Shown here piece by piece: positions 1-32,400 of a stretch of DNA of 64,000 nt. Position 1 is the stretch's first letter. Every line of letters starts with the position of its first letter. The notes under the pieces were generated by a model that saw only the letters and a program-made list of their open reading frames with translations, was not told the origin of the DNA and made no database searches. Source of the stretch: Pseudomonadota bacterium. Its GTDB lineage: Bacteria > Myxococcota_A > UBA9160 > SZUA-336. Where the stretch lies: contig QJZC01000004.1 in the NCBI GenBank assembly GCA_003247575.1, forward strand, positions 1 through 64,000. The letters are read 5' to 3'. Both the position numbers and the translations under genes were made by a program.

Positions 1-71
1 TTGGGAGTCCGCGACCAGGCCCGGCCGCCGAAACGCCAGAGCCCCTCACGAAGACTCGTGACCTAGTCGGG

Positions 72-1001
72 CTAGAAGCCAGACCCTGTTCCCGCTTCAG
101 GTGCGCCGTTGCGCGCTTCCAGCAGCGCCTTCAGTTCGCGTAACTTGCGCTTGGTGCGCTCGACGTTGGCTGGCCCCATCCTGAGGAGCTGGCGCTGGGC
201 TGGAGCCAGTGCCTCCAGCTCGGGATCCTCGTACGCGTAGGTCTTGGCGCGCGGGATCAGAGCCGGCGCCCGGTCGAGCTCGGGAACTGCGAGCAGGACA
301 TCGAGGGCGGCTCGGAAGGTGTCGTCGAAATCCTCGCCCGGATATCCGAGCTCGGCATATGCCTGGTCGAACAACGGCTCGAGCCGAGTGTAGACGCGCA
401 CCAACGCGGAGGCGTCGAGAGCGCTCAAGGCATCGACGAGCGGTGTATAGCGTGCATAGCTCGCCGGGTCGATCCGCAGATAGAGCAAGTCGCCCCTGAC
501 CTTGAACTGGCCCTTTGGAGCCAAGTATTCGAAGCGCTGCTGTGGGCTACGCCCTTCGGCGACCTCGAGAGCGGCAGTTACGAAAGTCTGGATCAGGTCG
601 GGCTGGTTGAGTACGCGCTTTGCAAGTGGGTGGCTATCGAGCGGAGCGGCGAAGTCCCTCAGGATCGCATCGCTCTCGGATAGCTGGGGTAGCTCGATCG
701 AGCGCTCGGGCTCGAGCACCGAGGGAGCTGGCTCGAGCCTGTCGAGCGCTGCTTCCCTGGAAGTGCCGACATCGTTCTTGGACTCGGGAGTCGGAGCGAG
801 CGCGGGGGGTGGCCTGCGCGCCGCCACGTCGGGGTTCTCCTGGTGCGAGGCGAGCAACTCATCGAGCTGCGGGGGCGGCCACGGGGCCTGCCCCAGATAG
901 ACCAAGGTACCGTACCCTGCTGCTGCGACGAGCAGAAGCAGAGCAATACGCTTGAGCCACCGGGCTCCGGCCCGACTATTTCCAGACCTGCGGTTGCCCA
1001 C
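72..1001 (-). CDS. DUF3014 membrane-anchored protein
   Basis: This 309-residue protein has a short basic N-terminus, one transmembrane helix (about residues 17-36, ALLLLVAAAGYGTLVYLG), a proline/glutamate-rich linker and a C-terminal domain from about residue 100. That domain has the layout I know from DUF3014: LPQLSESDAILRDF, then AYAELGYPGEDFDDTF, then a final block ending QRQLLRMGPANVERTKRKL. The family is uncharacterised, and the topology suggests a bitopic inner-membrane protein with a periplasmic domain. The start is GTG, the first available in frame, and it leaves a basic residue cluster just before the helix. The gene stands alone at the window edge, 162 bases downstream of the pseudokinase gene on the same strand. 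I am confident of the family but can assign no function. Confidence 0.8.
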   Translation of the reverse strand: MGNRRSGNSRAGARWLKRIALLLLVAAAGYGTLVYLGQAPWPPPQLDELLASHQENPDVAARRPPPALAPTPESKNDVGTSREAALDRLEPAPSVLEPERSIELPQLSESDAILRDFAAPLDSHPLAKRVLNQPDLIQTFVTAALEVAEGRSPQQRFEYLAPKGQFKVRGDLLYLRIDPASYARYTPLVDALSALDASALVRVYTRLEPLFDQAYAELGYPGEDFDDTFRAALDVLLAVPELDRAPALIPRAKTYAYEDPELEALAPAQRQLLRMGPANVERTKRKLRELKALLEARNGAPEAGTGSGF

Positions 1002-1163
1002 CTCGAGAGACTACCATTTCTATGCGGGCGCGCGATGGGCGCGCGTGGCTCGAAGAGCTTCGACTACGGATCTGCCTCTGTTCTACAAGTGTGTAGCTTC
1101 TGTTCGATCGGGCGTGTGGGCGGCTGCTCAGCAGATTTCGCGTAAGATCTCGGGTAGAAACAC

Positions 1164-4100
1164 TCACGTAGGCGGGGGTACGAGCTCGTCGTGCTTCCAG
1201 CCAAGTCCCCACGCTGCATAGTGGAGGCCGGCTTCACGCAGGGCGACTTCCGCCTCGGCTCCTCGGCCGAGCTCGCGCAGGTAGGTCCCCCTGCGTTCCT
1301 GGATCAGGGCCTCGTAGTGTAGATGCTGCTGCTCGCGTGCCGCTCTGGCCGCGGCTTCGTAGAGCTCCAGTGAAGGGTCCACGCGCTGTTCGCTGCGCGC
1401 CAGCTCGGCGCGCAAGAGGAGCTCCATGTGGAGGCAGTCGGGGGCATTTTGTGCCCAGGTGCGAAGGCGCGACTGGCAGCCGCGGGCAATTGTCACGGCC
1501 TGATGTGCAGAGGGGACCAGGGGCGCGTCCATTCGGGCCAGTACACAGAGCCCCCGACACAAGGTGAAGTCGGCCATTTCCGCGGTTCGGGGGCCCTCGA
1601 CGTGAATCCGGTGTGCGAGCTCCTCCGAGAGCTCGGAGCCCGCCGCGTAGTCCCCGATGAAGGTCAGCGCCACTACCCAGTGCGCAGCAGCGTGTGGATT
1701 GTCTGTACTCGCGATCTCGAGCAGGCGAGCGGAGTCGAGTGTGGCTTTGCGCTCGGTAGGCAGGGCGGCCGCGTCAGCGAGTGGTTCTGCGCCCAGCTCC
1801 TCTCCTAAGAGTAGACGGTACGCTTCGATGGGGTGTGCCAGCGAATCGCGAAGCCACGGCTCCCGGAGCTGATCGTACACAATATCGAGTGTTTCGAGCA
1901 ACGCCGTGAGCTCAGTGCCGACGAGCGCGGTGTAGGTCGCACGTGCGTAGCAGCACGCCTCGACGGTCTCCGTGTCTCCGAGCTCGTACGCCTGCTTTGC
2001 GATCCGATCGAGCCCATCCAGCAGGCTGCGACGTGGATGTAGCCAGGGCAGCACACTGACGTACAGGATCGTGTGTGCTCGTACGTCGAGCATCGGGAGG
2101 GGGGAGCGCTCCATCCACTCCATGGCCATGTCGATGAGACGACTCACTCCCCACATAGGGTCGAACGCGGCCACTCGATAGGCGATGTAGCGGACGAGGG
2201 CGAAGGTCGCGTACGGCTGGCCCGAATCCTCGAGCAACCCGCGTAGGCGGAACGCGCTCGCCAGGCACATCCAACCATTGCTGATCCCCGCTAGAGTCTC
2301 GGCGCCTGCCTCGATCAGGCACGTGACAGGATCCGGTGCAGCCTGACCAGTTTCTGTGTATTTCGGCTCGGCGTCTGCCCGACTTTCCGATCCAGGCCGA
2401 GATCCGGCTGCTCTCTTCCTCGCGAGCCAATCCGTCCAGCAGACATGGAGCAGCACACGCGCGCGCGAAGGGGCCAGTGGCCATCGTATCGAGAGCTTCT
2501 GTAGGCCGGTCAGGGCCAGCTTCGCCGCTCGGGGGCGGTTCTGCTCTGCCACCCGCGCGAGCGTGATCTGTCTTGCAAGGACTCGAGCGGCGGCTTCTTT
2601 GGACAACGGCTTGGATTCGACCTGCGTGAGTAGTTCCGTGCACGCGGGGAAGTCTCGCGCATGAAAGGCAGCCTCGATCTCCAGCCAGAAGCTCTCGAAT
2701 GCGAGCCCGGGTCGCAGGTGCCAGTCGTCCTGTCGCAGTGAAGCGCGCGCCCGAGACAGGTATGCGCGAGCACTAGACGCGTCTCCGGCTCGGAGCGTCT
2801 GAATTCCCGCTGCGCGGTTCACTTCTCTCAGTAGCTCCTCCTCCTTCAGTGACAGCAAGGTCTGCGCGTGGTTCCAGTGCCAGGCGACCGCGAACAGCGA
2901 GTCGAGCTCGTCGAGATTCTGGTGTCCCGCCAAGAGCCAGCGACCGATGCGGTAGTGGATCTGGCGCGACGTCTCGGAGGAGATCCGCAGACTCGAAGCC
3001 TGCCGGACCGTGGGATCGGATAGCCGATAGCCTCGATCGGATACGTCGAGGATTCGGCGCACGTGTAGCTCGTGTAGCAGCGCGGGAACGCGTGGCAAAC
3101 GGAGGCCCGCAAGATCGGCGATCAGCTCGGGATCGATCGCGCCGGTGAGGTGACTGGCAAGGGCCACGATCTCGAGTGCCTCCTGCGGAAGGTTCTCGAG
3201 GCGGTGGGCGGTGAGCAGGGGTCTTCCCTTCGCGGCAGCGAGCGACTCGATGCGTTCGGGGCTCCACGTCCAGCCCGTGTCTGCGCGGTGCCGTAGCTCC
3301 CCCGCCTCGGATAGAAAGAACAAAAGCTCGTGGATCAACCGGGGTTGGCCAGCGGTCTGCCACTGCGTCGCGCGCGCAAGGTCTCGCACGCGTTCTTCCG
3401 GGAGATCGAGACGAGCGCCGAGGAGTCGAGAGATGTCTTGCGGGTCGAGGGGGCGTACGGAGAGCTCAGAGATCGCCATCGAGCCGTCCTGAGATGTACT
3501 GCGTAGCTCGCTCAGCAGCAGCCGTTCCCGCTCCGAGTCGGTGGCCAGTGACAGAACCACCACCAGGCTACACGGGCTCGCTGATTTCAAGATGCGCCGC
3601 AGCAGATAAAGGCTCCCCGAGTCTGCGTAGGTGAGATGGTCGAAGCAAAGGACGAGCGGAGCGTTAGGCCGTGCGATCGCCCGGATGAGGTGGTGGATGG
3701 CCGTTCCCAAGCGGGTTCGGCTCTCCTCGGGACCCAGCACGCCCAGCGGAGATTTCGTTCGTACGAGCGTGGATAGCTCAGGCAAGAACTCGGTGAGTAC
3801 GCCGCCGAGCTCTCCGAGCTCTGCCTGCAGTGCTCGCGACGTGTCGCTCTGGTTGCTTGCGTCGGACATCGAGCTCTCGTGGTTGCCGTCGCTCCCGAGG
3901 GACACGGCCAGGAGTTGCGCGACGAGCCGTTGGAGGCAGTCTCTGATTCCCGCGTAGGGCTCGGCTTCGCGCTCGGGCTCGAATGAGGTGCGCACGAGAT
4001 GGCCGCCGGCTCGCACGGTGTCGGCGCGGAGCGACGGACCCAGCGCAGATTTTCCGCTGCCGCTGGGACCGCGGACGAGTACGAGCTGAGGTTCACCGTG

Positions 4101-5072
4101 AAGAGCGCGCGCTAGAGCGGCACTCAGCTCAGTGAGCTGGGGTTCGCGCCCGTACAGGTGGTCGTCGATTCTCGGAAGCTCATCGATCGGCTCGCGCGGG
4201 TCCGTGTCCGTGTCCGTGCCCGTGTCGTTGGAGCCGGCTCTGGGCGATCCGCAGATGACCTTGCGGCAGCTCTCCAGATCTGCGAGTACGTCCGCCGCGG
4301 ATGCGTAACGATGCTCCGGGCGGCGTTCGATCAAACGCATGATCAGCCGAGACAGGGACACCGGGATCTCGGAACGAGCGTCGGCTACGGAACGCGTGCG
4401 CCTCGAGAGCTGCGCGTAGATCCTCTCTCGCGGTTCGCCCTCGCCGAACGGGGGGGTGCCGGTCAGGGCTCGATACAGGATTGCCCCGAGTGCGTACAGA
4501 TCGCTGCGGATGTCCGCGTGCCCATCCAGCAGGCCACTCGCTTCGGGAGCCCCATACGCCTGCGAGCGTGAGTCCGGTCGAGCCTTCCGGGCCGCACGCC
4601 CCCGAGGGGCCAGGGCGCCCGGTTCGAATGCGTGTCCGAACCCGACCAGGGCGAGGGTGTGCGTCCCCGGGTTGACCAGAACGTGAGTCGGGCTGAGCGA
4701 AGCGTGAATGATCCCGGATGTGTGTACGCCGACGAGCGCATCGGTGAGCTCGATCGCCAGCTCCAGGATCTCGACGGTAGACGGCGCGGTTTCGTCGGCC
4801 CAGCGGTCGAGGGGGACGCCGGGCATGAGCTCGAGGGCCAGATACGTGAAGCCGTCTGCGTTTCCTCGCTCCAGCGCTCGCGGAATGCGACGGTCGCGGA
4901 GGCGGTGCAGCAGCTGGAACTCCGTGTCGAGCCAGTACGCGGGATCGCTGTCGGCTAGGCACCATCGGACCAGGACGTGTTCTTCCGTGTCCTCCCGGAT
5001 GGCCAGGTGAAGACGCTCATCGCTCTTGCACGAGAGAGCTCGGACCAGGGTGTATCCGGGTGGGTGGAACAT
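1164..5072 (-). CDS. Giant pseudokinase-AAA ATPase-helical repeat protein
   Basis: This 1302-residue protein starts with a Ser/Thr protein-kinase fold (about residues 7-270). The structural marks are kept: YGAPEAS (APE motif, about 173-179) and DLYALG (about 191). The catalytic ones are not: the beta-3 lysine position reads VLVRW (33-37), the HRD loop reads HAS (123-125) and DFG reads GFG (144-146). A Thr/Asp-rich linker follows, then a PknK/AfsR-type AAA domain with an intact Walker A (GPSGSGKS, about 335-342) and a Walker B-like LVLCFDHL. The remaining ~700 residues look like alpha-helical repeats. Kinase-AAA-TPR proteins of this layout are common in Myxococcota-type genomes as signalling ATPases. 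Here the kinase domain is most likely an inactive binding module. Its partners are unknown. The desaturase gene lies 106 bases upstream on the same strand. Confidence 0.85.
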   Translation of the reverse strand: MFHPPGYTLVRALSCKSDERLHLAIREDTEEHVLVRWCLADSDPAYWLDTEFQLLHRLRDRRIPRALERGNADGFTYLALELMPGVPLDRWADETAPSTVEILELAIELTDALVGVHTSGIIHASLSPTHVLVNPGTHTLALVGFGHAFEPGALAPRGRAARKARPDSRSQAYGAPEASGLLDGHADIRSDLYALGAILYRALTGTPPFGEGEPRERIYAQLSRRTRSVADARSEIPVSLSRLIMRLIERRPEHRYASAADVLADLESCRKVICGSPRAGSNDTGTDTDTDPREPIDELPRIDDHLYGREPQLTELSAALARALHGEPQLVLVRGPSGSGKSALGPSLRADTVRAGGHLVRTSFEPEREAEPYAGIRDCLQRLVAQLLAVSLGSDGNHESSMSDASNQSDTSRALQAELGELGGVLTEFLPELSTLVRTKSPLGVLGPEESRTRLGTAIHHLIRAIARPNAPLVLCFDHLTYADSGSLYLLRRILKSASPCSLVVVLSLATDSERERLLLSELRSTSQDGSMAISELSVRPLDPQDISRLLGARLDLPEERVRDLARATQWQTAGQPRLIHELLFFLSEAGELRHRADTGWTWSPERIESLAAAKGRPLLTAHRLENLPQEALEIVALASHLTGAIDPELIADLAGLRLPRVPALLHELHVRRILDVSDRGYRLSDPTVRQASSLRISSETSRQIHYRIGRWLLAGHQNLDELDSLFAVAWHWNHAQTLLSLKEEELLREVNRAAGIQTLRAGDASSARAYLSRARASLRQDDWHLRPGLAFESFWLEIEAAFHARDFPACTELLTQVESKPLSKEAAARVLARQITLARVAEQNRPRAAKLALTGLQKLSIRWPLAPSRARVLLHVCWTDWLARKRAAGSRPGSESRADAEPKYTETGQAAPDPVTCLIEAGAETLAGISNGWMCLASAFRLRGLLEDSGQPYATFALVRYIAYRVAAFDPMWGVSRLIDMAMEWMERSPLPMLDVRAHTILYVSVLPWLHPRRSLLDGLDRIAKQAYELGDTETVEACCYARATYTALVGTELTALLETLDIVYDQLREPWLRDSLAHPIEAYRLLLGEELGAEPLADAAALPTERKATLDSARLLEIASTDNPHAAAHWVVALTFIGDYAAGSELSEELAHRIHVEGPRTAEMADFTLCRGLCVLARMDAPLVPSAHQAVTIARGCQSRLRTWAQNAPDCLHMELLLRAELARSEQRVDPSLELYEAAARAAREQQHLHYEALIQERRGTYLRELGRGAEAEVALREAGLHYAAWGLGWKHDELVPPPT
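4201..4224. repeat. Hexanucleotide tandem repeat in pseudokinase linker
   Basis: Four tandem TCCGTG units (the fourth is CCCGTG) encode the alternating Asp/Thr stretch TDTDTD on the minus strand, between the pseudokinase and AAA domains. The unit is a multiple of three, so slippage would change linker length without a frameshift. Confidence 0.8.
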
Positions 5073-5178
5073 CTGGAGTCTCTCGAGCCTGCATCGGCAG
5101 GAGAGACAGCTGGGTGAAGCACCTCGGGGGCTCCGAAGTCAGGCTCACTCCGCGCCTTCGAGCCCGGGAGCTACAGGG

Positions 5179-6225
5179 CTACATGCGTCGTGCCTCGGGT
5201 TTGGAAGTGGCTGCACGCAGCACCGTCCAGTAGCCGTTGGCGACGCAGGCATCGTCGAGGACGCCACGCTCCCCGAGGAGTCGGTGCAGACGGGGCAGCT
5301 TGTCGTGGGGCACCGTCATCATCAGGTGATGCTCGAGGTGGTAGTTGACGAAGTTGGGTGCGATGAGCAGGCGCTCCCACCAACTCGCGAGAGTCGTGCG
5401 GGTCTGTCCAAGGGGGTCGGATGCATTCGGGGTGAGCGCATGCTCCGCGATCGAGCGGATGCGCATGCACACCCGGTACGTGGTCAGCCAAGCGCCGATC
5501 CAGAGCAGATAGAGCATGGGGTGGCCGGCTACCGCCAAGCCCGCCAGCAAGATGGCGTTGGTGAGCGCGACCGACCTGAGCGTCTTCCAACGGCCCAGAG
5601 TGCCCATCGGTCGCCTGGCTGCGCGGAGATCGCGGCGCAGCACCGAGCGGGCTTGTTTGATGCCGGTGCGGCCGGACAGGTCGCGCCCGAGCTTGCGCAG
5701 GAAGCTGCTACGCGTGATCGGAAAGCGAGCCACCAAGTGGAGGTCGGGATCCCCGCTGGTGCCCGTCTTGGCGTGGTGGAGGAGGTGGTAGGGGCGATAG
5801 CCGTCGAGATCGGCCCAGATCGGGTAGCCAGCCAGCCAGCGTCCGACCCGGTCGTTCCAGCGTCGATCCGGGAGCAAGGTGCGATGCGCCGCTTCGTGCA
5901 TCAGGATGGCGAGACCGAGCTGGCGCGCACCGATGACGACCAAGGCCACCAGGACGCTCGAGATTCCCGGCAGCGCGGCAACGAGCGCGAAGCTCGCGAA
6001 GATCAGTCCCCAGTTGACTGCGAGCGAACGAATTGCGGGCAAGCGGTCGACCTGCAAGAGCGCTCTGCGCTCTTCATTCGAGAGAGCGTCCAGCCAGCGC
6101 GCTTGGGGTCGGTTGGAGCGCGTGTGGGGTAGGCTGGCCGCGGGTGGGGGCTCCGCGCGTCGAGGTTCGGAGCCGGCCTCCGGGGGGGCCGCGGCTACGG
6201 CTGAAGCGCGCCGCGGCTTCGTCAT
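5179..6225 (-). CDS. Membrane fatty acid desaturase
   Basis: This 348-residue integral membrane di-iron desaturase (COG3239 type) inserts a double bond into an acyl chain and needs an electron donor. All three histidine boxes are present: HEAAH (in MHEAAHRTLL), HLLHH (in YHLLHHAKTG) and HLEHH (in NYHLEHHLMM). Hydrophobic pairs lie before the first box and between the second and third. The N-terminal ~45 residues are polar and low in complexity. I chose the ATG at 6225 because it has an AGGGA ribosome site at good spacing. An upstream in-frame TTG at 6249 would add eight residues. The gene is divergent from dnaE2. The substrate (acyl-lipid, acyl-CoA or a carotenoid-like compound) cannot be read from the sequence. 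Confidence 0.88.
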   Translation of the reverse strand: MTKPRRASAVAAAPPEAGSEPRRAEPPPAASLPHTRSNRPQARWLDALSNEERRALLQVDRLPAIRSLAVNWGLIFASFALVAALPGISSVLVALVVIGARQLGLAILMHEAAHRTLLPDRRWNDRVGRWLAGYPIWADLDGYRPYHLLHHAKTGTSGDPDLHLVARFPITRSSFLRKLGRDLSGRTGIKQARSVLRRDLRAARRPMGTLGRWKTLRSVALTNAILLAGLAVAGHPMLYLLWIGAWLTTYRVCMRIRSIAEHALTPNASDPLGQTRTTLASWWERLLIAPNFVNYHLEHHLMMTVPHDKLPRLHRLLGERGVLDDACVANGYWTVLRAATSKPEARRM

Positions 6226-6394
6226 CGTCGAGGCTTCCCTTGCGGGCAACTCACGGCTCTCTGGCTCCCTTCGTCGTCCGCATGTTACGCGGAAGTCTGT
6301 AGGAATGCATCCGCGCCTCGGATGTCGTCTGCGTCGGGGGGCGCTCGGCGGTAAGGGTTCTGGTGACGTGGGTGGCGGGCGGCGTCGGCCACTT

Positions 6395-6418
6395 GCGAAA
6401 GGCGAAAATATAGCGAAA
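6395..6418 (+). promoter_or_regulatory. Triple GCGAAA motif just upstream of dnaE2
   Basis: GCGAAA occurs three times, at 6395, 6402 and 6413, in an A-rich patch directly before the dnaE2 GTG at 6427. The surroundings are otherwise very GC-rich. The patch could be a regulator site, a translation enhancer or the -10 neighbourhood. I found no recognised SOS (LexA) box in the 6226-6426 gap. Confidence 0.3.
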
Positions 6419-6426
6419 ATGGCATC

Positions 6427-9400
6427 GTGTCCAAGCCTACCTACGTCGAGCTAGGGATCCAGAGCGCGTTCAGCTTTCTGGAAGGAGGCGCACTCCCCGA
6501 AGACCTGGTGGCGCGCGCAGCTGATCGTGGACATGGGGTGCTCGCGCTCAGTGACGTCGATGGGGTCTACGGTATTCCTCGCTTCCATCGCGCGGCAGTG
6601 TCGCAAGGGGTACGTGCAATCGTGGGCGCGCGAATCCATCTGGCGGCGGAAGAAGCGGACTCGGCGATGTTGCATCGGAACGCCACAGCGCGTTCCTGGC
6701 GACATCGTCAACGGACGGGGCGAGCGTCGGACGATCGGGGGGATTCGCCGCGCGCACCCGCGGGGGCCCCGCCTTCTCGCGGCCGTGTCACGTTGTTGGT
6801 GAAGTCGGCGCTCGGGTACCGCAATTTGTGTCGCCTGTTGACCCTGGGGCATGCGGAGCATCCCAAGCCCCATGCTCGCGTGCGATTGGATCAGCTGCGC
6901 GAGCACGCGCAAGGACTGATCGCCTTGGTGCGTTTACCGGCGCTCGTCGCACCGCTGCGCGAGATGTTTCCTGGCGAGATCTATGGGGAGCTCTGGAGGC
7001 TGCTCGACCCCGACGAAGAGCGCCTCAACCGCGTGCTGTTGGCCACGGGGGTGCCTCCGCTGGCGACGGGTGCGGTGCTCTACGCCAAGCCAGAGGATCG
7101 GCGTCATGTCGACGCCTTTACGTGTCTACGTCACAAGCTGGCCCTCGATGCAGCTGGCCGGCGTTTGCTGCCGAATGCCGAGCGTCACGTGAAGGCTCCC
7201 GACGAAATGTGTGCGCGCTTCGGTGACCTGCCCGAAGCGCTCAGTAATACGCTGCGCGTCTCCGAGCGCTGCGAATTCTCGCTCGAGCATCTCGGCTATC
7301 GGTTTCCCGACTTTCCGCTCGGCCCCGGCGAGACGGCCGCTGCGAAGCTCCGGCAGCTGTCCGAGCAAGGATTGCGCGATCGATTCGGCCCGCGGATTTC
7401 GCAGCGTGTCTCGAAGCAGCTTGCTCACGAGCTCGCGGTCATTCGTCGGCTCGAGCTCGAAGGGTACTTCCTCATTGTTTGGGACATCGTCTGTGCCTGC
7501 AGAGAGAAAGGGATTCTGGTGCAGGGGCGAGGCTCTGCAGCGAACAGCCTGGTCTGCTACGCGCTCGGGATCACCGCGATCGATCCGATTCGCTACGAGC
7601 TGCTCTTCGAGCGCTTTCTCTCCGAGGAGCGCGGAGAGTGGCCCGACATCGATTTGGATCTGCCGTCGGGTGATCGCAGGGAAGAGATCTTGCAGTACGT
7701 CTACGCGCGCTATGGTCCCCATGGTGCTGGGATGACGGCGAACGTCATCACGTATCGACCGCGGAGTGCTGTGCGTGAAATGGGCAAGGTGCTCGGGTTC
7801 TCCGAGCCTCAGCTGGGACGGCTCGCGAGCATGCTGTCGCGCTTCGAGTACGTGGAAGAAGACGCCGGCGACGAGATCGTTCGTCGCGCTACGGAATCGG
7901 GAATGTCGCTGCGGGCTGCGCGCGTACGCCATCTACTGGATCTGGTTTGCCGCATCCAGCATCTTCCGCGGCACCTGAGCCAGCATTCGGGGGGCATGAT
8001 CGTGGCACAGGGGCGTCTCGACGAAGTCGTTCCACTCGAGCCCGCACGCATGCCCGGACGTTCGGTCATTCAGTGGGACAAAGAGGACTGTGCAGATCTG
8101 GGTATCATCAAGATCGATCTCCTCGGTCTCGGGATGATGGCCGTTTTGCAGGACGTCATCCCCTTGATTCGAACGCATGACCACGTCGAGATCGATCTCG
8201 CACAGCTCCCCGCGGATGACCCCCTGACGTATTCCATGCTGCAGAAGGCCGATACCGTCGGAGTCTTTCAGGTCGAGAGTCGCGCTCAGATGGCGACCTT
8301 GCCGCGCATGAAGCCCGCGTGCTTCTACGATCTGGTCGTCGAGGTAGCGATCATTCGCCCCGGGCCGATCGTCGGTGAGATGGTGCAGCCCTACCTACGC
8401 CGTCGGTCGAGCGAGGAACCTGTGACCTATCCGCATCCCGATCTCGAGCCGATCCTCGCGCGAACCTTGGGTGTGCCCTTGTTTCAGGAGCAGCTGCTGC
8501 GGGTGGCCATGGTGATTGCAGGCTTCAGTGGTGGTGAAGCCGAAGAGCTGCGCCGCGCCATGGGGTTCAAACGCTCCGTGGAGCGAATGCGTGCCGTGGT
8601 TCAGCAGCTCCAGCGTGGGATGACGGCGCGCGGGATCGATCCTGCGGTACAAGAGGAGCTGATCAAGCAGATCCGCTCCTTCGCCCTGTACGGGTTTCCC
8701 GAGAGTCATGCGGCCAGCTTCGCCCTGTTGGCCTACGCCTCGGCGTATCTGCGTGCGCACCATCCAGCGTGCTTCTTGGTCGCCATGCTGAACAATGCTC
8801 CGCTCGGGTTCTACAGCCCTGCGACGTTGGTGCACGATGCGCAGCGGCATGGAGTACGGGTGCTTCCCATCGATGTGCAGCGAAGCGAGGTCGCTGCCAC
8901 GGTCGATCCCGATGGTGCGGTGCGAATCGGTTTGGAGTATGTCACCGGACTACGTAGGTCGGCTGCGGAGCGCATAGCGCGCGGGCGTCCCTATGGCTCG
9001 CTGGCCGACCTGGCACGCCGCGCGCAGCTAGGGCGTGAGGAGCTCGAGAAGCTGGCCGAGGTGGGAGCCTGCCAGTCTCTGGGGCTCGAGCGCCGTGCTG
9101 CACTCTGGCAAGTGGCTGCTCTGCGTGGGGACCTCTTGGCCGAGGTGCGCTCGGAGGGCGCATCTCCTCTGCCCGAGATGGGGGCGCTAGAGGAGACGCT
9201 CGCGGACTACCGAGGCTCGGGTCTGACCGTGGCTGCGCACTTGATGCACCATTTTCGGTCTCGGCTGGAAGCTCGCGGCGCGTTGACGGCGCGCGCGCTC
9301 GCGCAGGTTCCGGATGGCCACTGGGTGCGGGTTGCCGGGGCTGTGATCGTTCGCCAGCGGCCGGGAACCGCCAAGGGCTTCCTGTTCCTGACGCTCGAAG

Positions 9401-9597
9401 ACGAGACGGGGATGGCCAATGTCGTGGTGGTCCCCAAGCTCTTCGCGCGCTTCCGGCACGTCCTGTTGGGATCGGGCCTGATCTGGGTCGAAGGCCCGTT
9501 GCAAAACGTACAGGGAGTGATTCATGTGCGTGGACGTCGTTTTCGCGAGCTCGAATTCGGCCGGGAGCCGCTGCCCCCATCTTATGACTTTCGCTGA
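6427..9597 (+). CDS. dnaE2: Error-prone DNA polymerase III alpha subunit DnaE2
   Basis: This 1056-residue C-family polymerase carries out translesion synthesis in the damage response. The order is PHP domain (1-~270, with an insertion near 85-115), palm/fingers, helix-hairpin-helix region and a C-terminal OB domain (VRVAGAVIVRQRPGTAKGF, about 955). The catalytic palm motif PDIDLDLPSG is present, as are GRGSAANSLVCYALGI and SGGMIVAQGRLDEVVPLEPA. The length fits DnaE2 (~1050) and is shorter than replicative DnaE1 (~1160). The PHP metal-ligand positions are degenerate (ELGIQSAFSFL instead of ELHxHS), as is usual in DnaE2. The usual partners imuA/imuB are not adjacent. The start is GTG; the nearby ATG at 6419 is out of frame. 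Confidence 0.93.
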   Translation: MSKPTYVELGIQSAFSFLEGGALPEDLVARAADRGHGVLALSDVDGVYGIPRFHRAAVSQGVRAIVGARIHLAAEEADSAMLHRNATARSWRHRQRTGRASDDRGDSPRAPAGAPPSRGRVTLLVKSALGYRNLCRLLTLGHAEHPKPHARVRLDQLREHAQGLIALVRLPALVAPLREMFPGEIYGELWRLLDPDEERLNRVLLATGVPPLATGAVLYAKPEDRRHVDAFTCLRHKLALDAAGRRLLPNAERHVKAPDEMCARFGDLPEALSNTLRVSERCEFSLEHLGYRFPDFPLGPGETAAAKLRQLSEQGLRDRFGPRISQRVSKQLAHELAVIRRLELEGYFLIVWDIVCACREKGILVQGRGSAANSLVCYALGITAIDPIRYELLFERFLSEERGEWPDIDLDLPSGDRREEILQYVYARYGPHGAGMTANVITYRPRSAVREMGKVLGFSEPQLGRLASMLSRFEYVEEDAGDEIVRRATESGMSLRAARVRHLLDLVCRIQHLPRHLSQHSGGMIVAQGRLDEVVPLEPARMPGRSVIQWDKEDCADLGIIKIDLLGLGMMAVLQDVIPLIRTHDHVEIDLAQLPADDPLTYSMLQKADTVGVFQVESRAQMATLPRMKPACFYDLVVEVAIIRPGPIVGEMVQPYLRRRSSEEPVTYPHPDLEPILARTLGVPLFQEQLLRVAMVIAGFSGGEAEELRRAMGFKRSVERMRAVVQQLQRGMTARGIDPAVQEELIKQIRSFALYGFPESHAASFALLAYASAYLRAHHPACFLVAMLNNAPLGFYSPATLVHDAQRHGVRVLPIDVQRSEVAATVDPDGAVRIGLEYVTGLRRSAAERIARGRPYGSLADLARRAQLGREELEKLAEVGACQSLGLERRAALWQVAALRGDLLAEVRSEGASPLPEMGALEETLADYRGSGLTVAAHLMHHFRSRLEARGALTARALAQVPDGHWVRVAGAVIVRQRPGTAKGFLFLTLEDETGMANVVVVPKLFARFRHVLLGSGLIWVEGPLQNVQGVIHVRGRRFRELEFGREPLPPSYDFR

Positions 9598-9672: not shown

Positions 9673-11907
9673 ATGAGTGAGTACAGTCCAGATTCCGTGA
9701 TGAACGAAGCCTTTGGCCTCCTGGAAGCGGGGCAGGCTGCACTGTGGCTCGAACTCTACGCTGCCTTTCCCGAGGAGACGCGCACGGAGTTTCCGGACGT
9801 AGTCCACCAGATGCTCGATCGGGAGGATGCGATCCCCACCGCGACCCTCGTGGCGCCGCTCTACGGTGAGGAGTCGGACCCTTCGGTGCGCGAGCACTTC
9901 ATCCAGATGCTCGCGTTCGAGTCCTGTATCGAGAGCGCGCAAGTGCTGCAGCTGTGGAAGGGCCTAGCCCCCACGCGACGCGAGAGACGCGCGATTCGCG
10001 CTGCTCTCGCGCAGCTCGGCCGTAGGGGCATCGAGATCCCTTCGGGCGAGGAGCGCGCATGGGAGTCGCAGATCTCCGCCCGCATGTCCAGCGCCGATGG
10101 AATGGGCTCGTACCGCATCGTGATCGAGTTTCGGATCGGCCGCTCCTCGGTGTTTCTCGCCTTTGCGATCAATGTGGATGCAGGGCTCCGCGAGGCCGAG
10201 CGCATGGGAGCCGATGCAGCCGAGTTCTTGATGAGATTCGGCGAAGACTACGGACTTGCGGATGCCGAGGTGTCTCCGTCCATGGCAGCCCTCACCGTGC
10301 GTCAGGCGGTGCGCTGTTCCCGGTCACTCGGGCGGGAGCTGCCAGAAGGGTGGAGCGACGCCTCCGCGTGGCTCGACAAGATCCCGAGCGCCACGATCCT
10401 CACGAATGGTTCCGAAAGCGCGGAGAGTGAGGTGCAGCGCCCGCGCGTCCCATCCGCGGCAATCGAGATGAAGCCGCAGGAGCCCAAGGCTGAACGCGTG
10501 CGTCTCACCACGCGTCAGCTCGCCCTGCGACGAGAGTTCGAGACCTGGTTCCTGCCCCCGGTCGCCGAGCTTCGGCGGCGCGCGGACGCCTATCTGACCG
10601 AGATGGGTGGGCGCCGAACGGGAACGTACGCGAATCGTACCGGGCTTCTGCAGATCGTGTCCGAGTACGTGATCCGTCCCGCGTACCGCGAGCGTCTGGT
10701 GGCGATGCTGCGCCATCAAGCCGAGCTCTATCTCTTGCGCGGAGACGTGCCCGCGATGCGAGCCGCGCGTCGTAGCATCGATGAGGTCGAGCTCGGCCAG
10801 GTCGGGCGGGGCTTCTTGAAAGTCTTCGCAGAGCGCAGCCTCGAATGCCTGTCGGACGAGCTGTCCCGTTCGGACCCGCTGCCGCCCGACGAGCGCAGGC
10901 CGGCGTGGGTCGAGGCGCTGCGACCCCTGGAGCCTCCCCGCCGCCGGGACGTCGTCCGCGCGGACTTCGCGGTGCTGCTGGATCACGTGTTGGCCACGGA
11001 GCTCGATTTGGTGCCGCTGGTGCAGCGACCGACGGAGTCGCAGCTGATCGAGGTGATCACCAACTGCGCTGACGCGGTGGTCGAACGTCTCGAGCTGCGG
11101 GCGCGAGCCGCGCGCAGTTCCAGGACGATCCTGACGCAGCAGGACGCACGCCTGCTGGCGAGTGAGTTCACCCGCTTGTTGCGTCTCCGGACAGCTCTCG
11201 GACGTGGCGATACGGCCGCGATCGGGCGTGTGCTGGCCGAGCGTACGCGCGCATTCGCGAATCAGGCGTGTGGGCAGTATTGCACGCACGCATGCCCGGC
11301 CGCCCTCGATGCCTGTGGGGAAGCCCTGTACGACATCGAGGGGCATCCTGCGCGACTCTCGGGGGACACCTTCGACCCTGCGCTGGCGCTCGACGCGGTG
11401 GGGCCTCGTACGAAGTCCGCACTGCCTGGCGCGTTGCTCGATGAGCTGCGCCGCCTCGAGCGCGCCTGCCGGGTCGTCGGTCTCCACACGAGCGACCTAG
11501 CGCAATCTTTCGCCCGGTGGGAGCGTCGCTTCGCGATCTCGGAGGGTCTCCAACCCTGGAGTGAGCTGGGACGAGAGGCGGCGCACGATCTCTGTACCGC
11601 CTTGCGTGCTGCTCTCGAGCGTCTGCCGCGGCTGTCCCCCTCGTCGGATCCGGAGACCCGCTCCGCATGGGAGGCCTTCGCGTCCGTTTATCCGGTTCTT
11701 CCGGTAGAGCTCGTGAGCCGCATGATCGCACGCAGCGAGCGCTCGACCGATGTGCTCGCGGTCCTGCTCGGGGCCGCGGAGGGCTTCGAACGCCGCGCCT
11801 TGCCGCTGGCCGAGGTGAGGCCCGCACTGGAGAGGCTATGGAACGCGACCCCGCGCCCCGAGCTTCATGGCAGGACCCCCAACCAGGTGGAGGACTCGGG
11901 CCGCTGA
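9673..11907 (+). CDS. Unknown 744-residue protein with Cys motif, upstream of fxsA-addBA
   Basis: I do not recognise this protein. It is soluble, has no signal peptide or membrane segment, and is mostly predicted alpha-helical and rich in Arg, Glu and Leu. Visible features are an acidic N-terminal helical region, a central stretch at about 280-400 with TRQLALRREFETWFLPPV and YVIRPAYRERLVAMLRHQAE, and a cysteine motif near 532-547 (CGQYCTHACPAALDAC, pattern C-x3-C-x3-C-x6-C) that could bind zinc or an Fe-S cluster. It lies 75 bases after dnaE2 and 45 bases before fxsA, on the strand of addB-addA, so it may share their transcript. No ribosome site is obvious at the ATG. Codon usage matches its neighbours, so it is a real gene, but its function is open. 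Confidence 0.8.
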   Translation: MSEYSPDSVMNEAFGLLEAGQAALWLELYAAFPEETRTEFPDVVHQMLDREDAIPTATLVAPLYGEESDPSVREHFIQMLAFESCIESAQVLQLWKGLAPTRRERRAIRAALAQLGRRGIEIPSGEERAWESQISARMSSADGMGSYRIVIEFRIGRSSVFLAFAINVDAGLREAERMGADAAEFLMRFGEDYGLADAEVSPSMAALTVRQAVRCSRSLGRELPEGWSDASAWLDKIPSATILTNGSESAESEVQRPRVPSAAIEMKPQEPKAERVRLTTRQLALRREFETWFLPPVAELRRRADAYLTEMGGRRTGTYANRTGLLQIVSEYVIRPAYRERLVAMLRHQAELYLLRGDVPAMRAARRSIDEVELGQVGRGFLKVFAERSLECLSDELSRSDPLPPDERRPAWVEALRPLEPPRRRDVVRADFAVLLDHVLATELDLVPLVQRPTESQLIEVITNCADAVVERLELRARAARSSRTILTQQDARLLASEFTRLLRLRTALGRGDTAAIGRVLAERTRAFANQACGQYCTHACPAALDACGEALYDIEGHPARLSGDTFDPALALDAVGPRTKSALPGALLDELRRLERACRVVGLHTSDLAQSFARWERRFAISEGLQPWSELGREAAHDLCTALRAALERLPRLSPSSDPETRSAWEAFASVYPVLPVELVSRMIARSERSTDVLAVLLGAAEGFERRALPLAEVRPALERLWNATPRPELHGRTPNQVEDSGR

Positions 11908-24710: not shown

Positions 24711-27700
24711 ATGGATTTGATCTATCGCTTTGATGAGTTCGAGCTCGACGGGCATCACTACGAGCTGCGTTGTCGAGGTGAGGTGCGGCCCCTGCCGCGG
24801 AAGGGGTTCGATCTTCTCCGCTATCTGTTGTCCCAGGCTGGGCGTGTGGTCAGCAAGGAGGAGATCTTCGAGCAGATCTGGCCTTCGCTCGCTGTCAGCG
24901 AAAACGTGCTGCCCGTGACGATCCGGACGATCCGCCGCGTCCTGCGGGACGAGGGCGGAGTGCTTTTGCGCACCGTGAGGGGGCGCGGCTACTCGATCGT
25001 GTGTCCCGTAACCGAAGAGAGTCCCGAGCGCGCCCAAGCGGGACCGGAGCCCGCGCCTGAGCGCGGTTTCGTAGGGCGCGAAGCGCTCATGCAAGACCTC
25101 GAAGCGCAGTTCCGCGCTGCGCAGGCCGGCGAGGGACGCATCCTCTTGATCCACGGTGATGCCGGGGTCGGGAAGAGCCGCGTCCTGGACGAGCTAGTGC
25201 ACCTACTGCGCCCACGCACGCGGCTGATCTTGAGGACGCGTTGCAGCTCCGAGCCGGGAGTTCCCCCGTATTGGCCTTTGAGCCAGGCTCTCGAGCAGGC
25301 TCAGGGCCTCTTCGAGCCGCCTCCGGGCAGCGGTGAGCCCTCCGATGGAGGCGCGGGGAGCGCGCATGCGGCCGGGGGGACCTACGCGAGTCTGGTCGAA
25401 CTCCTCGATCCCGAACTGAATCGCGGGGTGCCGCCAGCGGAGGTTCGATTCAGGTTCTCGCGCACGGTGATTCGCTATCTCCAGGAGCTCGGATCGTCGG
25501 CTCCGGTCGCGATTCTGCTCGACGATCTGCACGAGGCCGATCTCGACACGCTCCATGTCGTCGAATCCGTAGTGCGCGAGATCGCTGGCGTGCCCGTGCT
25601 CATCGCCGCGAGCTACCGACAAGGTGGGAGTCGCCGCGGCGGCGAGCGTTCCTACCTGTTGGCCCGAATCGCGCAGGCTACGAATGCGCACCAGATTCGC
25701 CTCGTGGGCTTCGATGAACGCGAGATCGCGCAGTTCATCCAGCAGGAGGCGGGCGTCGAGCCGCGTGCCGAGTTGGTGGCGGCCTTGCGCGAGAAGACGG
25801 AAGGCAATCCCTTCTTCCTGCGAGAGACGGTGCGATGGCTACTCGAGGAGGGTGGCATCGACGAGAACTGCAACCTCGCGGAGCTCGGACTGCCCGCGAC
25901 TGTGCGAGACGTCACTCTGCGCCGTCTCGACGTGTTGTCCGAAGAGTGTCGCTTGCTGCTCAGCTGGGCGTCGGTCATCGGAAGTACCTTCACGATTCCG
26001 GTGCTGGAGCAGGTGACCGAGATGTCGAGTGATACCATTCTGCTTCAGCTAGGGGACGCCGAGAACGCGCGTATCATTTCGAGCCGTGACCCGAGCGGCC
26101 CGCCCCGTCCTCCTGGTGAGTACGGGTTTGCGCACGCTCTGACCGCAGAGGCGCTCTACCAGGAGATCTCGGCTCCAGAGCGCGTGCGGCGTCATCGTCG
26201 CGTAGCCATTGCCCTCGAGGTGGTGAGTGGCCGCTCGATCACGGAGAGAGTGGGCGAGCTCGCGCACCACTTCTTCCAGGCCGCGCCAGCAGGTGAGGTC
26301 GACCGTGCTGGATATTATGCGATCCAGGCGGCGGAACGTGCGCTCGAGATGTTTGCCTACGACGACGCTGTCACCCAGTTCCGCAATCTGCTCACGATCG
26401 AGGAGATGCGTGTGCCGCGAGATGACGTGCGCTACTGCAATGGCCTCCTCCGGTTGGGAGATGCACTGTCACGCACCGGTCGCTACGCGGACTCCGAGCA
26501 GACCTTCCTGCGGGCTGCGGAGCTTGCGAGCCACCTGGATTCTGCGGAGCTGTATGCCCGAGCGGCACTGGGGGTCGCGGGCGATCCGTTCCGACGCGTT
26601 GGCCCCGAGTTCAAGGAGGATCCGGCACGCCCTTCGGCGCGCGAGCTCCTGGAACGCGCAGTGGAGTGGATGGCGGAGGGGAGTCTCGAAGTGCGCGCGC
26701 GCACTTGTGCCGCGTTGGCGCGACGCATGGTCGGGTCTGGCACCCGCGCCGAAGAGCTCGCACAGCGCGCGGTAGAGCTGGCTCGTGACGCGGATAGTCG
26801 CACGGCCTTGTTCGACGCGCTGATGGCGCAGCTCACGGTCCTGGTGGGACCCGAGCACACGGAGGCCCGCCTCCTCCTGGCGGACGAGGGTGTGCAGCTC
26901 GCGAAGTCACTGGATGCAAAGCCGCTGCTGGCGCAGGCCTACGCGGCTCGAATTTCGCTGCTCATCGCCATAGGGGATATGGACGCCGCCGATCGTGATA
27001 TTGCAGCTTTCGTTGCGCTAGCGAAGCGCCTGCGCGTGTCGCGCTACATGTACGACGCGCTTCGATTTCGTGTATGCCGTGCCGTGGGGAGCGGCAGATT
27101 CGAAGAGGGCCGCCAGCTGACGAATCGACTGCTGGAGCTGGGTCGCGAAGTCGGCGATCCCGCGGCGGGTTGGATCGCCGGCTCGAATGGGATGGCGATG
27201 CTCAGCTTCGTGGAGAGAAAGCGCGAGATTCTGCGCGCTGCAGCCGAGTCCATCGCCTCGCAAGAGCATATGGAGGGGCCTACGGCTGATACGTTCGCCG
27301 CGTACTTCGCGATGAGCTCGGGCGACAAGCAAGTGGCTCGAGCGAGGTTGGAGCGAGTGGCCGCTGATGGGTTCGCGCACTACCCGAAGACGGAGGACTG
27401 GCTCTGGAATCTCTCGCTCTTGGCGGACGTATGCGTGAGCCTGAGAGACGTGAAGCGCTCCGAGCAGCTGTATGAGCTACTGCTCCCTTACGCGCACCTG
27501 AACGTCGTGAACCGGCTGTCCAACTATCGAGGCTCGCTAGCCAGTGTCCTCGGCCGGCTTGCACTCATTCTGGGGGACCGAGAAGCTGCGAAGGCCCACA
27601 TGCAGGCTGCGATCGAATTCAATCGCAAGCTCGGCGCGTCGGTCACGGTGCTCGTGAACCGATTTTTCTATGCGGTGGCACTCCGACTGGGAGCGCCTGC

Positions 27701-27812
27701 AGAGCGTGCTGAAGCGCGGACGATCTTCAAGGAGGTTCTCGCCGAGGCGCCGCGCTACGGAGTGCTTCCATTCATCGAGAGGATGCGGCGAGAGGCCGGT
27801 GTCGCGTTCTGA
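24711..27812 (+). CDS. Winged-helix / AAA ATPase / TPR transcriptional regulator
   Basis: This 1033-residue regulator resembles AfsR and LAL-type activators. Residues 1-~103 are an OmpR/PhoB-type winged helix (YRFDEFELDG, LPRKGFDLLRYLLSQAGRVV, then RTVRGRGYSIVCPV). Residues ~118-450 are an AAA ATPase with Walker A GDAGVGKSR, Walker B ILLDDLHEADL and the GFDEREIAQFI helical segment. From ~500 to the end come helical TPR-like repeats. In this class the ATPase and repeats sense a signal and control DNA binding. Start choice is close: ATG 24711 sits almost on AAGGTGG, while TTG 24717 would have ideal spacing to it. The upstream 199 bases are locally AT-rich, so the gene probably has its own promoter. 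Targets are unknown; the neighbouring acyl-CoA ligase is a candidate. Confidence 0.85.
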   Translation: MDLIYRFDEFELDGHHYELRCRGEVRPLPRKGFDLLRYLLSQAGRVVSKEEIFEQIWPSLAVSENVLPVTIRTIRRVLRDEGGVLLRTVRGRGYSIVCPVTEESPERAQAGPEPAPERGFVGREALMQDLEAQFRAAQAGEGRILLIHGDAGVGKSRVLDELVHLLRPRTRLILRTRCSSEPGVPPYWPLSQALEQAQGLFEPPPGSGEPSDGGAGSAHAAGGTYASLVELLDPELNRGVPPAEVRFRFSRTVIRYLQELGSSAPVAILLDDLHEADLDTLHVVESVVREIAGVPVLIAASYRQGGSRRGGERSYLLARIAQATNAHQIRLVGFDEREIAQFIQQEAGVEPRAELVAALREKTEGNPFFLRETVRWLLEEGGIDENCNLAELGLPATVRDVTLRRLDVLSEECRLLLSWASVIGSTFTIPVLEQVTEMSSDTILLQLGDAENARIISSRDPSGPPRPPGEYGFAHALTAEALYQEISAPERVRRHRRVAIALEVVSGRSITERVGELAHHFFQAAPAGEVDRAGYYAIQAAERALEMFAYDDAVTQFRNLLTIEEMRVPRDDVRYCNGLLRLGDALSRTGRYADSEQTFLRAAELASHLDSAELYARAALGVAGDPFRRVGPEFKEDPARPSARELLERAVEWMAEGSLEVRARTCAALARRMVGSGTRAEELAQRAVELARDADSRTALFDALMAQLTVLVGPEHTEARLLLADEGVQLAKSLDAKPLLAQAYAARISLLIAIGDMDAADRDIAAFVALAKRLRVSRYMYDALRFRVCRAVGSGRFEEGRQLTNRLLELGREVGDPAAGWIAGSNGMAMLSFVERKREILRAAAESIASQEHMEGPTADTFAAYFAMSSGDKQVARARLERVAADGFAHYPKTEDWLWNLSLLADVCVSLRDVKRSEQLYELLLPYAHLNVVNRLSNYRGSLASVLGRLALILGDREAAKAHMQAAIEFNRKLGASVTVLVNRFFYAVALRLGAPAERAEARTIFKEVLAEAPRYGVLPFIERMRREAGVAF

Positions 27813-29432: not shown

Positions 29433-32400
29433 ATGGCGGAAACGTCGCGCACTTGGCCCGTTCTCTGGGACCGTTTTCACAAAGCCGAGGGACGGGTTCA
29501 TCTTACCGGCTACGAGGCGGTCGTTCGGCTGATGCTCGACCACGTGCGGCTCGAACGCAGGGCAGGGCGACGTGTAGCCGCGCTCTACTCTGGCTGTCCT
29601 GGTAGCTCGATGGACGCGCTCGTCGATCTACTCGATGCGCTCGAGCCCTTGCTCACGGATCATGATACGCGCTTCGTTCCTGCGCTGGACGAGGCCCTGG
29701 CAGCGGAAGCGATCGTCGGCACTCAGGCGCTGGATCTATTTCCGCACTCGCACCACGACGGCGTGCTCGGTGCGTGGATCGGGTCGGCCTCTGGGCTGGA
29801 ACGCGCCCTGAGTGTCGTGCGGCGCGCCAGCTATCAGGGAGTGTCGCGCTTCGGGGGTGCGCTCGTACTCGTGGGCGACGATCCATCCGGGGCGAGCACG
29901 GGGATGCCGACCTACTCCGAGAGTGCGCTCGCTCACGCCTTCGTACCGGTCTTCTATCCCGCGGACGCTGCGGAGATCCTGAGCTTGGGACGTCACGCAT
30001 TGGCGATCTCTCGCTTTGCTGGAACCTGGGTCTCGCTCAAGCTCGTGCGCGACGTCGTGGCTGGCGGCATGATCGTGACACTCGAACGGAATCCGTTCGA
30101 GCCTCAGCTTCCGAAGCTCGAATTCGCGGGACGAGCATTCGAGAAGCGCCTCGAGCCCTCGCTGCGGCGCGCCGCGATCCGCCGCAGCGAGCATGAGTTG
30201 GTCTATGAGCGCCTCGAGGCGGTCCAGAGATACGCCGATCTGAATGAGCTGAATCCAGTCGAGCATCGTCATGCGCGCGATCGCCTCGGGATCGTCGCCA
30301 GCGGTCGCCTGTATCGGGAGCTCCAGAGCGCCTTCGAGCTGTTGGGCCTCGATGCGGCGGCGCTCGGAAAGCTGGGGATTCGGGTTCTGCGTCTGCAGCT
30401 GCTCTATCCCATCCCCAAGCGTCGTCTGCGTGAATTTGCCGAGGGGCTCAGCGAAGTCATCGTGCTCGATGATCGACGCGGGTTCATCGAGGATCAGATT
30501 CGGATCGGACTGTGCGATCTGACTTCGCCGCCGCGCGTGCTGGGCCAGCGCGATCGCCGTGGGGCACCCTGGCTTGCTCGTCATGCCGAGGTCACTGCGG
30601 AGTCGCTCGCGCTCGATTTGGGGCCCTACCTGGCGCGGCAGTACGCGCCTTCGGGAAGCGACCTGCCGGTCCTTCAGCGGCTTCACAAGAAGGTCGATCC
30701 AGAGACGGGAGAGGCGCGCATCGTTCCCGTTCAGGGACCCGACGTGGTGCGGGATGCCCTCGTGAGCCGCATCGCGGAGCTCGGAATCGCGCGCCATCGC
30801 CTGCCGAGCGCGTGGAGCGTGTCGGAGGCGTGTTCACGCGCCGAAGAAAGCAGTGCCGCCTGCCCATCGGGGGAGATGGGGCCCCTCTCCGAAGAGGTGT
30901 ATGGCGTCGGATCGGTGTCGAGCTGGATCGGGCTTGCTCCCTACATCCACACGCGGCATCGCTTCGTGCGGCTGCCACGAACCCTGCCCTGGCACAGATC
31001 ACGGCTCGTGATCCAGGCAGCGATCGATGCGGGGGTCACCGTGACCTACGTGTTGCAGCTGCATTCGATCTCCGGGGGGCGTGACGAACGTCGCGCAGGA
31101 AAACCCGTCGGCGACGCAAGCGCCGTTGCGAGCGAGAGACGCTGTCGGCCATCGCGTGCCGATTGCATCCGCGCACTCCTCGCCGAGGGGGTCGCGCACG
31201 TAGTCGCTCGGATTCACGACCCAGCGATCGATGCATTGGCCGAGCGAGATCCGAGAGTCGAGGTCGTGCGCACGCAGAACATCGAGCAGATGCAGCAGCG
31301 GTTGGCCGCTCAGTCTGGGGTCAGCCTGTGGATCGAGCAGGAGCCGGCGGATTCCCTCACCGAGCTGCAGCGGCGCGTGCCCGTTTGGGCCTTCCCCCCG
31401 GAATCGTTCGGGCCGAGCTGGTCAGAGCTGTTCGACATCGAGGGGGAGTGGGCTCCTGGGCCGGCGTATCGAGAGCTCGAACAGCTCGTCCTGGATGAGC
31501 CTGATCTCCCGACGGAGGGTGCGAGGCGCGTTCAGCTGTGCGCTTCCGGTCCTTCTGCGGAACGCATCATCGACGTCATCGTGCGAGCGGCCGAGATCGA
31601 GGGGCTTCATGCTGTGCATCTGGCCTGCCCGCACGGGCCTCAGCCCGCTGCGTCCGACTGGGCCAGCTGTATCCTGAGCTCTACACCGATCCCGGGATCC
31701 GCGCGGGTCGTGCTCGAAGGGGCGAGCTGCGTGTTCGCATCGAGCTTCGAGCTCCCGCCCAGCGCCTCAGGTGATCGCGTACTGTCACCGGAGAGGTCGC
31801 TGGTGCTTCTGCACCGGCCAGCAGCTCCGGATCGGATCGTCGGCACCCGGAGCTCCGCGACGGACGTGCAACACAGCTGGGATGCGCGTTGCCGGGAGCT
31901 CCAGGTGATAGACGCGCGCGAGCTCTGTCGCAGCGTGCTCGGGGCACCGCAGCACCATCCGATGGTGCTCCTTGGGATGGCTGCCCAGCGGGGTAGGCTG
32001 CCCTTTGCAAGTGCTGGGCTCGAGTGTGCGATTCGCGACCGCGAGTCCGATCTGGAAGGGAGCCTGCTGGCCCTGCGGCTGGGCCGGGCCGTTGTCGCGG
32101 CCCCCGAGGTCGTGGAGAGATGGATGCGCGCGGCGCTGGATCATGACAGTGCCCACTCTCTCCGGACGGCCTCCGCGTCTGCGGGCCGCCCCGATGATCC
32201 ACATGCGATTCTCGAGCGAGCGTTGGCGCCTTTCACGGATCGACGAGTGGCCACCGGTGCGCTGGAAGCGCTGTCCAGGCAGGCCCGCGAGCTGGCGGAC
32301 TACCAGGACCTTGCCTACGCCACCCGGTTCGCGTCCGTCGTCGAGGTTCTACTCGCTTCAGAGGCCCGAAGTTCGGAGCTTCGCCAGCCTCTGCTCTCGG

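Follow-up and report, generated by a model that had tools for sequence, protein, structure and literature searches.

Among the closest described counterparts of the protein considered here are the CP1 proteins, which occur mainly in cyanobacteria and proteobacteria and of which, according to the CP1 section of O'Boyle et al. (2025, PMC12599244), about 40 % are pseudokinases with varied lost motifs. In that section CP1 proteins are described as having no transmembrane region and as all being linked to the predicted ATPase COG3899, often with GAF or PAS parts; the same paper reviews alternative activities of pseudokinases. Two other surveys count kinase-like sequences without the catalytic Asp across prokaryotes (PMC1262709) and report cyanobacterial kinases lacking this residue, one of which, SpkE, is inactive (PMC2176072). 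For the ATPase side, a review of NLR proteins describes a nucleotide-contacting His in the winged-helix motif FxHxxxQEhxA, constitutive activation of NLRC4 when this residue, His443, is changed to Leu, and the holding of ATP without hydrolysis by CED-4 (PMC7583971). Here we analysed a window of 64,000 nucleotides (positions 1 to 64,000 of contig QJZC01000004.1, assembly GCA_003247575.1, from a Pseudomonadota bacterium of the GTDB lineage Myxococcota_A), in which the gene at 1164–5072 on the minus strand encodes a protein kinase fold followed by an AAA_16/STAND ATPase, a winged-helix-like part and a helical C-terminus. Both nucleotide sites of this protein deviate from those of its many paralogues, and we consider it most likely, with a probability of about one half, that it serves among them as an adaptor or decoy without enzyme activity, capable at most of binding nucleotide.

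Loss of catalytic residues in the kinase domain

The four catalytic residues of protein kinases (beta-3 Lys, HRD Asp, catalytic-loop Asn and DFG Asp) were scored in an alignment of 66 rows, obtained from 70 family open reading frames (ORFs) and made up of 65 paralogues with a scorable kinase domain and the 1164–5072 protein. In the latter the four are R, S, H and G, with His130 in place of the Asn, and it is the sole row from its own genome that retains none of them. A preliminary description of the sequence had noted the lack of a beta-3 Lys, HAS for HRD and GFG for DFG, and had taken APE and the following aspartate to be retained. The alignment bears out each of these points, with Arg36 occupying the beta-3 Lys position and Pro-Glu (176–177), Asp191 and also Gly196 being present in the 1164–5072 protein and in all 66 rows.

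An AlphaFold2 model of residues 1–290 had a mean predicted local distance difference test (pLDDT) score of 90.9, and its best solved match was Mycobacterium tuberculosis PknB (5u94; Z 30.9, root-mean-square deviation 2.1, 252 residues aligned). The kinase match is above chance, both by this fold score and because all four catalytic residues occur at the same columns in 34 of the 66 rows. No acidic residue appears to substitute for the lost catalytic acids, since residues 112–149 hold neither Asp nor Glu. Only three Lys occur in residues 1–275 (16, 163 and 271), and Lys16, the sole one of the N-lobe, is at the glycine-rich loop, where the first strand ends; Lys occupies this position in 1 of 63 rows. 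Given the lack of Asp and Glu in 112–149 and the presence of Lys16 alone in the N-lobe, the predicted structure makes an active site with both a Lys and an Asp look unlikely, and the alignment, the model and the missing acids together support the earlier assignment of a pseudokinase. A role in anti-phage defence was considered and rejected, as the 25 listed PADLOC matches fall on the kinase domain only.

Changes in the ATPase and C-terminal parts

The ATPase part was compared in an alignment (A2) of 60 rows, consisting of the 1164–5072 protein and 59 of 62 long paralogue rows; L089, L090 and L094 were left out and checked afterwards. A further alignment (A3) held 30 rows. The external set comprised 82 ORFs from the best 80 of 546 matches (loci of named organisms), chosen by motif and score. 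In the preliminary description the ATPase was called intact, which holds for its Walker A motif, GPSGSGKS at 335–342, but not for the domain as a whole: conserved residues are replaced by His479, Ala510, His461 and Asp686, and of 96 family-conserved positions 23 were changed, more than in any other of the 60 rows (family median 7). With a looser cut, changes were found at 14 of 54 kinase positions outside the catalytic ones and at 16 of 61 ATPase positions.

The second Walker B position is Asp in 56 of the 60 genome rows and in 78 of the 82 external rows (the remaining four include one gap), and position 461, His in the 1164–5072 protein, is Arg in 56 of 60. The winged-helix His at 686 is present in 59 of 60 rows, in 2 of the 3 rows checked later and in 82 of 82 external rows, in all 143 of 145. 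The Walker A Lys, for its part, is found in 58 of 60 and 2 of the 3 later-checked rows (60 of 63 in the genome) and in 81 of 82 external rows (one gap). The labels sensor 1 (510) and second Walker B acid (479) were assigned from motif order. Residue 686 falls within a family motif, FxHDRIREA, which the alignment and a model of residues 1–740 (pLDDT 86.3, predicted template modelling score 0.87) place between a beta hairpin and a helix, and it may occupy the position of the NLR-type nucleotide-contacting His. Retained in the 1164–5072 protein are the fold-related residues Arg454, Pro577 and Arg690 and 143 of 160 hydrophobic columns.

Pfam matched Pkinase at residues 49–257 and AAA_16 at 306–505, and detected no GAF, HisKA or HATPase anywhere in the 1302 amino acids (aa). 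The maximum 19-residue Kyte–Doolittle mean was 1.34, indicating no transmembrane region. By comparison, the long paralogue L070 continues after the shared part with GAF, HisKA, HATPase and receiver domains, and the external relatives L149 and L161 with GAF, HisKA and HATPase.

A large paralogue family with repeated kinase losses

The source genome (5.83 Mb, 74 % complete, in 68 contigs) was searched with the 1164–5072 protein and yielded 87 matches, three of them with a stop inside; it contains at least 65 paralogues. Among the 70 family ORFs, 55 were of 1200–1450 aa and five of at least 1857 aa; shorter ones of 398–1101 aa also occurred, some at contig ends. The expansion to 66 kinase–AAA_16 genes is mainly of the short form without a histidine kinase module, and none of the 10 family-level relatives sampled gave a match at E≤1e-30. 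Besides the 34 rows with all four kinase residues, 29 of the 66 had lost at least one catalytic Asp and 17 had lost both. One paralogue, L094 (G000:C19, 3329–5548, minus strand), has lost both residues of Walker A and both Asp of the kinase, together with the sensor-1 Arg and the winged-helix His, and by sequence appears to be a second doubly degenerate long member of the family. The idea that loss of the winged-helix His is unique to the 1164–5072 protein was dropped, as L094 also has Asp there, with Walker A lost as well.

A tree was reconstructed by a quick search from the columns after the kinase domain (63 rows) and has long branches. Live and dead kinase states required 17 changes on it, against 20.8 (standard deviation 2.0) for shuffled labels, a value reached by 14 of 300 shuffles, which indicates that kinase losses were repeated with weak clustering. 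The preliminary description had proposed a phylogeny to see whether losses are shared. Four dead paralogues, one each from L102, L109, L111 and L113, form one well supported clade, and the 1164–5072 protein groups with L122, likewise dead, with a support of 86. Its end branch, of 1.64 changes per column, is the second longest after that of L094 (2.3). Deviations in the ATPase part differed little between dead and live members (median 7 and 6, P=0.05), and the full set of Walker A, the two Walker B Asp and the winged-helix His was retained in 22 of the 25 dead rows and 29 of the 35 live ones.

Relatives in other genomes

A search of genome contigs with the 1164–5072 protein did not yield an orthologue, and among 89 further genomes of the class a single match, a distant one, was found at E≤1e-30 (G080). 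In the phylum sample, matches were found in 69 of 282 genomes, own genome included. Matches of at least 100 bits numbered 68 in the own genome and at most 19 in any of eight phylum genomes (G265, 10.6 Mb), a comparison that favours the own genome because the query comes from it; the eight were picked from the 282 mainly for large size or good matches, and 81 candidates were scored in each.

Among the external relatives, kinase residues were counted in the 74 ORFs with all four columns, the other 8 being left uncounted. At least one catalytic Asp was lost in 51 of the 74 and all four residues in three, so that complete loss appears rare, though not restricted to the 1164–5072 protein. A large proteobacterial group (for example L149, L169 and L172) has lost the beta-3 Lys, kept the HRD Asp and changed DFG to GFG, which makes GFG a recurrent state in the family.

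Gene structure and surroundings

The ORF runs for 1302 codons with neither a stop nor a frameshift inside, and its codon pattern resembles that seen in paralogues for the kinase, ATPase and C-terminal parts alike. The features of the gene and its neighbours are listed in Table 1.

Table 1. Features of the 1164–5072 gene and its two neighbours, with positions in the window
Feature	Position	Strand	Basis
CDS (coding sequence), 1302 aa, predicted pseudokinase – AAA_16/STAND – helical C-terminus	1164..5072	(-)	ORF from ATG; Pfam; codon pattern
Protein kinase fold, residues 1-275	4248..5072	(-)	AlphaFold2 model and PknB superposition
Arg36 at beta-3 Lys position	4965..4967	(-)	Lys in 60/66 aligned rows; model strand 31-39
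HAS (123-125) at HRD	4698..4706	(-)	Asp in 41/66 aligned rows
GFG (144-146) at DFG	4635..4643	(-)	Asp in 45/66 rows; GFG frequent in external relatives too
APE (175-177)	4542..4550	(-)	Pro-Glu in 66/66 aligned rows
AAA_16 ATPase core, residues 306-505	3558..4157	(-)	Pfam 81.9 bits; genome scan
Walker A GPSGSGKS (335-342), intact	4047..4070	(-)	Alignment; fits GxxGxGK[ST]
Walker B with Asp478 kept and His479 in place of the second acid	3636..3641	(-)	Alignment
Ala510 at sensor-1 Arg position	3543..3545	(-)	Arg in 46/60 rows
Asp686 at winged-helix His position	3015..3017	(-)	Alignment
Helical C-terminal region, residues 740-1302	1167..2855	(-)	Zero Pfam matches in C-terminal half
Fatty acid desaturase, upstream neighbour	5179..6225	(-)	PF00487; 106 bases before ATG of 1164-5072 gene
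DUF3014 protein, downstream neighbour	72..1001	(-)	PF11219

Relatives of the desaturase were present in 34 of 39 genomes. No terminator-like site was seen in bases 1–6700, compared with 2.2 expected in shuffles, and the three genes could therefore be co-transcribed, a weak indication. When 356 neighbour proteins were clustered for an operon partner, nothing recurred except paralogues and one cluster of nine proteins that resemble TonB receptors (named by eye).

Other genes of the window were noted in passing. At 24711–27812 on the plus strand lies a 1033 aa protein with the order Trans_reg_C winged helix, AAA_16 and TPR, belonging to a second expanded family; the genome scan found about two dozen AAA_16 frames of about 1030–1160 aa in addition to the kinase-fused ones. 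The 1167 aa product of 29433–32936 (plus strand) matches DUF6537 and, only weakly, PFOR_II, and we take it to resemble a divergent relative of indolepyruvate oxidoreductase without a recognised thiamine domain. A 744 aa protein with zero Pfam matches is encoded at 9673–11907 (plus strand), adjoining a DnaE-like polymerase (named by eye) at 6427–9597.

Interpretation and alternative explanations

If the 1164–5072 protein is a non-enzymatic adaptor or decoy, its kinase domain would keep the fold without transferring phosphate, and the STAND ATPase would probably still bind nucleotide through Walker A and Asp478. The residues needed to hydrolyse nucleotide and to keep the ADP-bound closed state appear to be lost, so that little or no hydrolysis would be predicted, and a protein with such losses and a kinase unable to transfer phosphate would most likely act without enzyme activity. 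Speculatively, it may be permanently open or insensitive to nucleotide and may associate with live paralogues or their partners through its kinase, STAND and helical parts. A more specific form, in which it is a 'dead' counterpart of NLR proteins, a pseudokinase joined to a pseudo-STAND that cannot stay off in the ADP-bound state and so serves as a constitutive adaptor or decoy among more than 60 live or half-dead paralogues, is doubtful. Several observations weigh against a maintained non-enzymatic role. Retention of the hydrophobic core was 0.894, the second lowest of 60 rows (median 0.968), which also fits relaxed selection, and no orthologue was found by which selection on the dead domains could be gauged. 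The sensor-1 position varies among family members (Arg in 46 of 60 rows), and the putative role of residue 686 is taken from its motif and model placement rather than from a solved relative. When the ATPase alignment was searched against PDB sequences, the P-loop matches were weak and PH0952 came up for the winged-helix region (E 2e-4); the matches of a VIA search with the 740-residue model were filled by kinases. Finally, no recurrent neighbour or partner emerged from the clustered neighbour proteins.

The main rival is early decay, in which a redundant member of a large family is under relaxed selection and not yet broken. It would explain why this is the most deviant of the 60 rows, why its end branch is so long and why both ATP sites are affected, and it would agree with the visibly broken or cut members of the family (ORFs of 398–1101 aa; stops in 3 of 87 matches). 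We nevertheless regard it as unlikely, for the 1302 codons have remained unbroken, with a normal codon pattern in three parts, despite more than one change per column on the branch; Pro-Glu, Asp191, Gly196, Arg454, Pro577 and Arg690 are all kept, and so are most hydrophobic columns, though in a proportion exceeded by nearly all other rows. The reading of the preliminary description, a functional ATPase gated by a pseudokinase that binds some ligand or partner, is rather unlikely for this protein: Walker A and Asp478 are retained, but control of a working ATPase is unsupported because several conserved switch residues are replaced (His479, Ala510, His461 and Asp686). It suits the family better, in which variation falls on the kinase residues and spares the Walker A Lys, Walker B and the winged-helix His. 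An unusual transferase activity, kept or gained through shifted residues as in SelO and SidJ, might draw on Lys16 at the glycine-rich loop and on Arg36 as a phosphate contact; it seems very improbable, as the usual loops offer no Asp or Glu as metal or base ligand and position 16 is Lys in just 1 of 63 rows.

Across the family, the ATPase switch is near constant and kinase catalysis has been lost many times. This suggests that phosphorylation is mostly not what the kinase fold is kept for, and that it probably serves the STAND switch as a regulatory or docking element. Within a single genome the members grade naturally from fully live to wholly dead, which would allow direct tests of the non-catalytic role of bacterial pseudokinases, and the 1164–5072 protein stands at the extreme end of this range.

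Comparison with known systems

With the PknB-type Hanks kinases the 1164–5072 protein has the fold in common, but all four catalytic residues are replaced. It shares the order Pkinase, AAA_16 and helical region with HstK-type proteins, whose architecture (kinase, ATPase, GAF and histidine kinase) we take to be tied to the kinase–AAA_16 family; long relatives end in GAF-HisKA-HATPase, whereas the 1164–5072 protein ends before GAF. With STAND NTPases such as NLRC4, APAF-1 and CED-4 it has in common an intact Walker A and the first Asp of Walker B, and the family motif around position 686 resembles the NLR motif given in the review cited above; it differs in that the second Walker B acid, sensor-1 Arg and winged-helix His are missing and in having a kinase fold as its N-terminal domain.

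As in the CP1 proteins, a kinase is linked to a predicted ATPase without a transmembrane segment, and 29 of the 66 family members here have lost a catalytic Asp, compared with about 40 % pseudokinases in the CP1 section of PMC12599244. The losses by which CP1 pseudokinases are recognised (VAIK Lys, HRD Asp and DFG Asp) are found as R36, S125 and G144, and the AAA_16 domain found by Pfam, together with the helical C-terminus, may correspond to the COG3899 ATPase. GAF or PAS parts, present in many CP1 proteins, are absent, and loss of ATPase switch residues is not described in the CP1 section of that paper; a limited literature search found no mention of members with both the kinase and the ATPase site degenerate. 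A pseudokinase fused to a COG3899-type ATPase is therefore an already described kind of protein, of which the 1164–5072 protein is probably an unusually degenerate variant.

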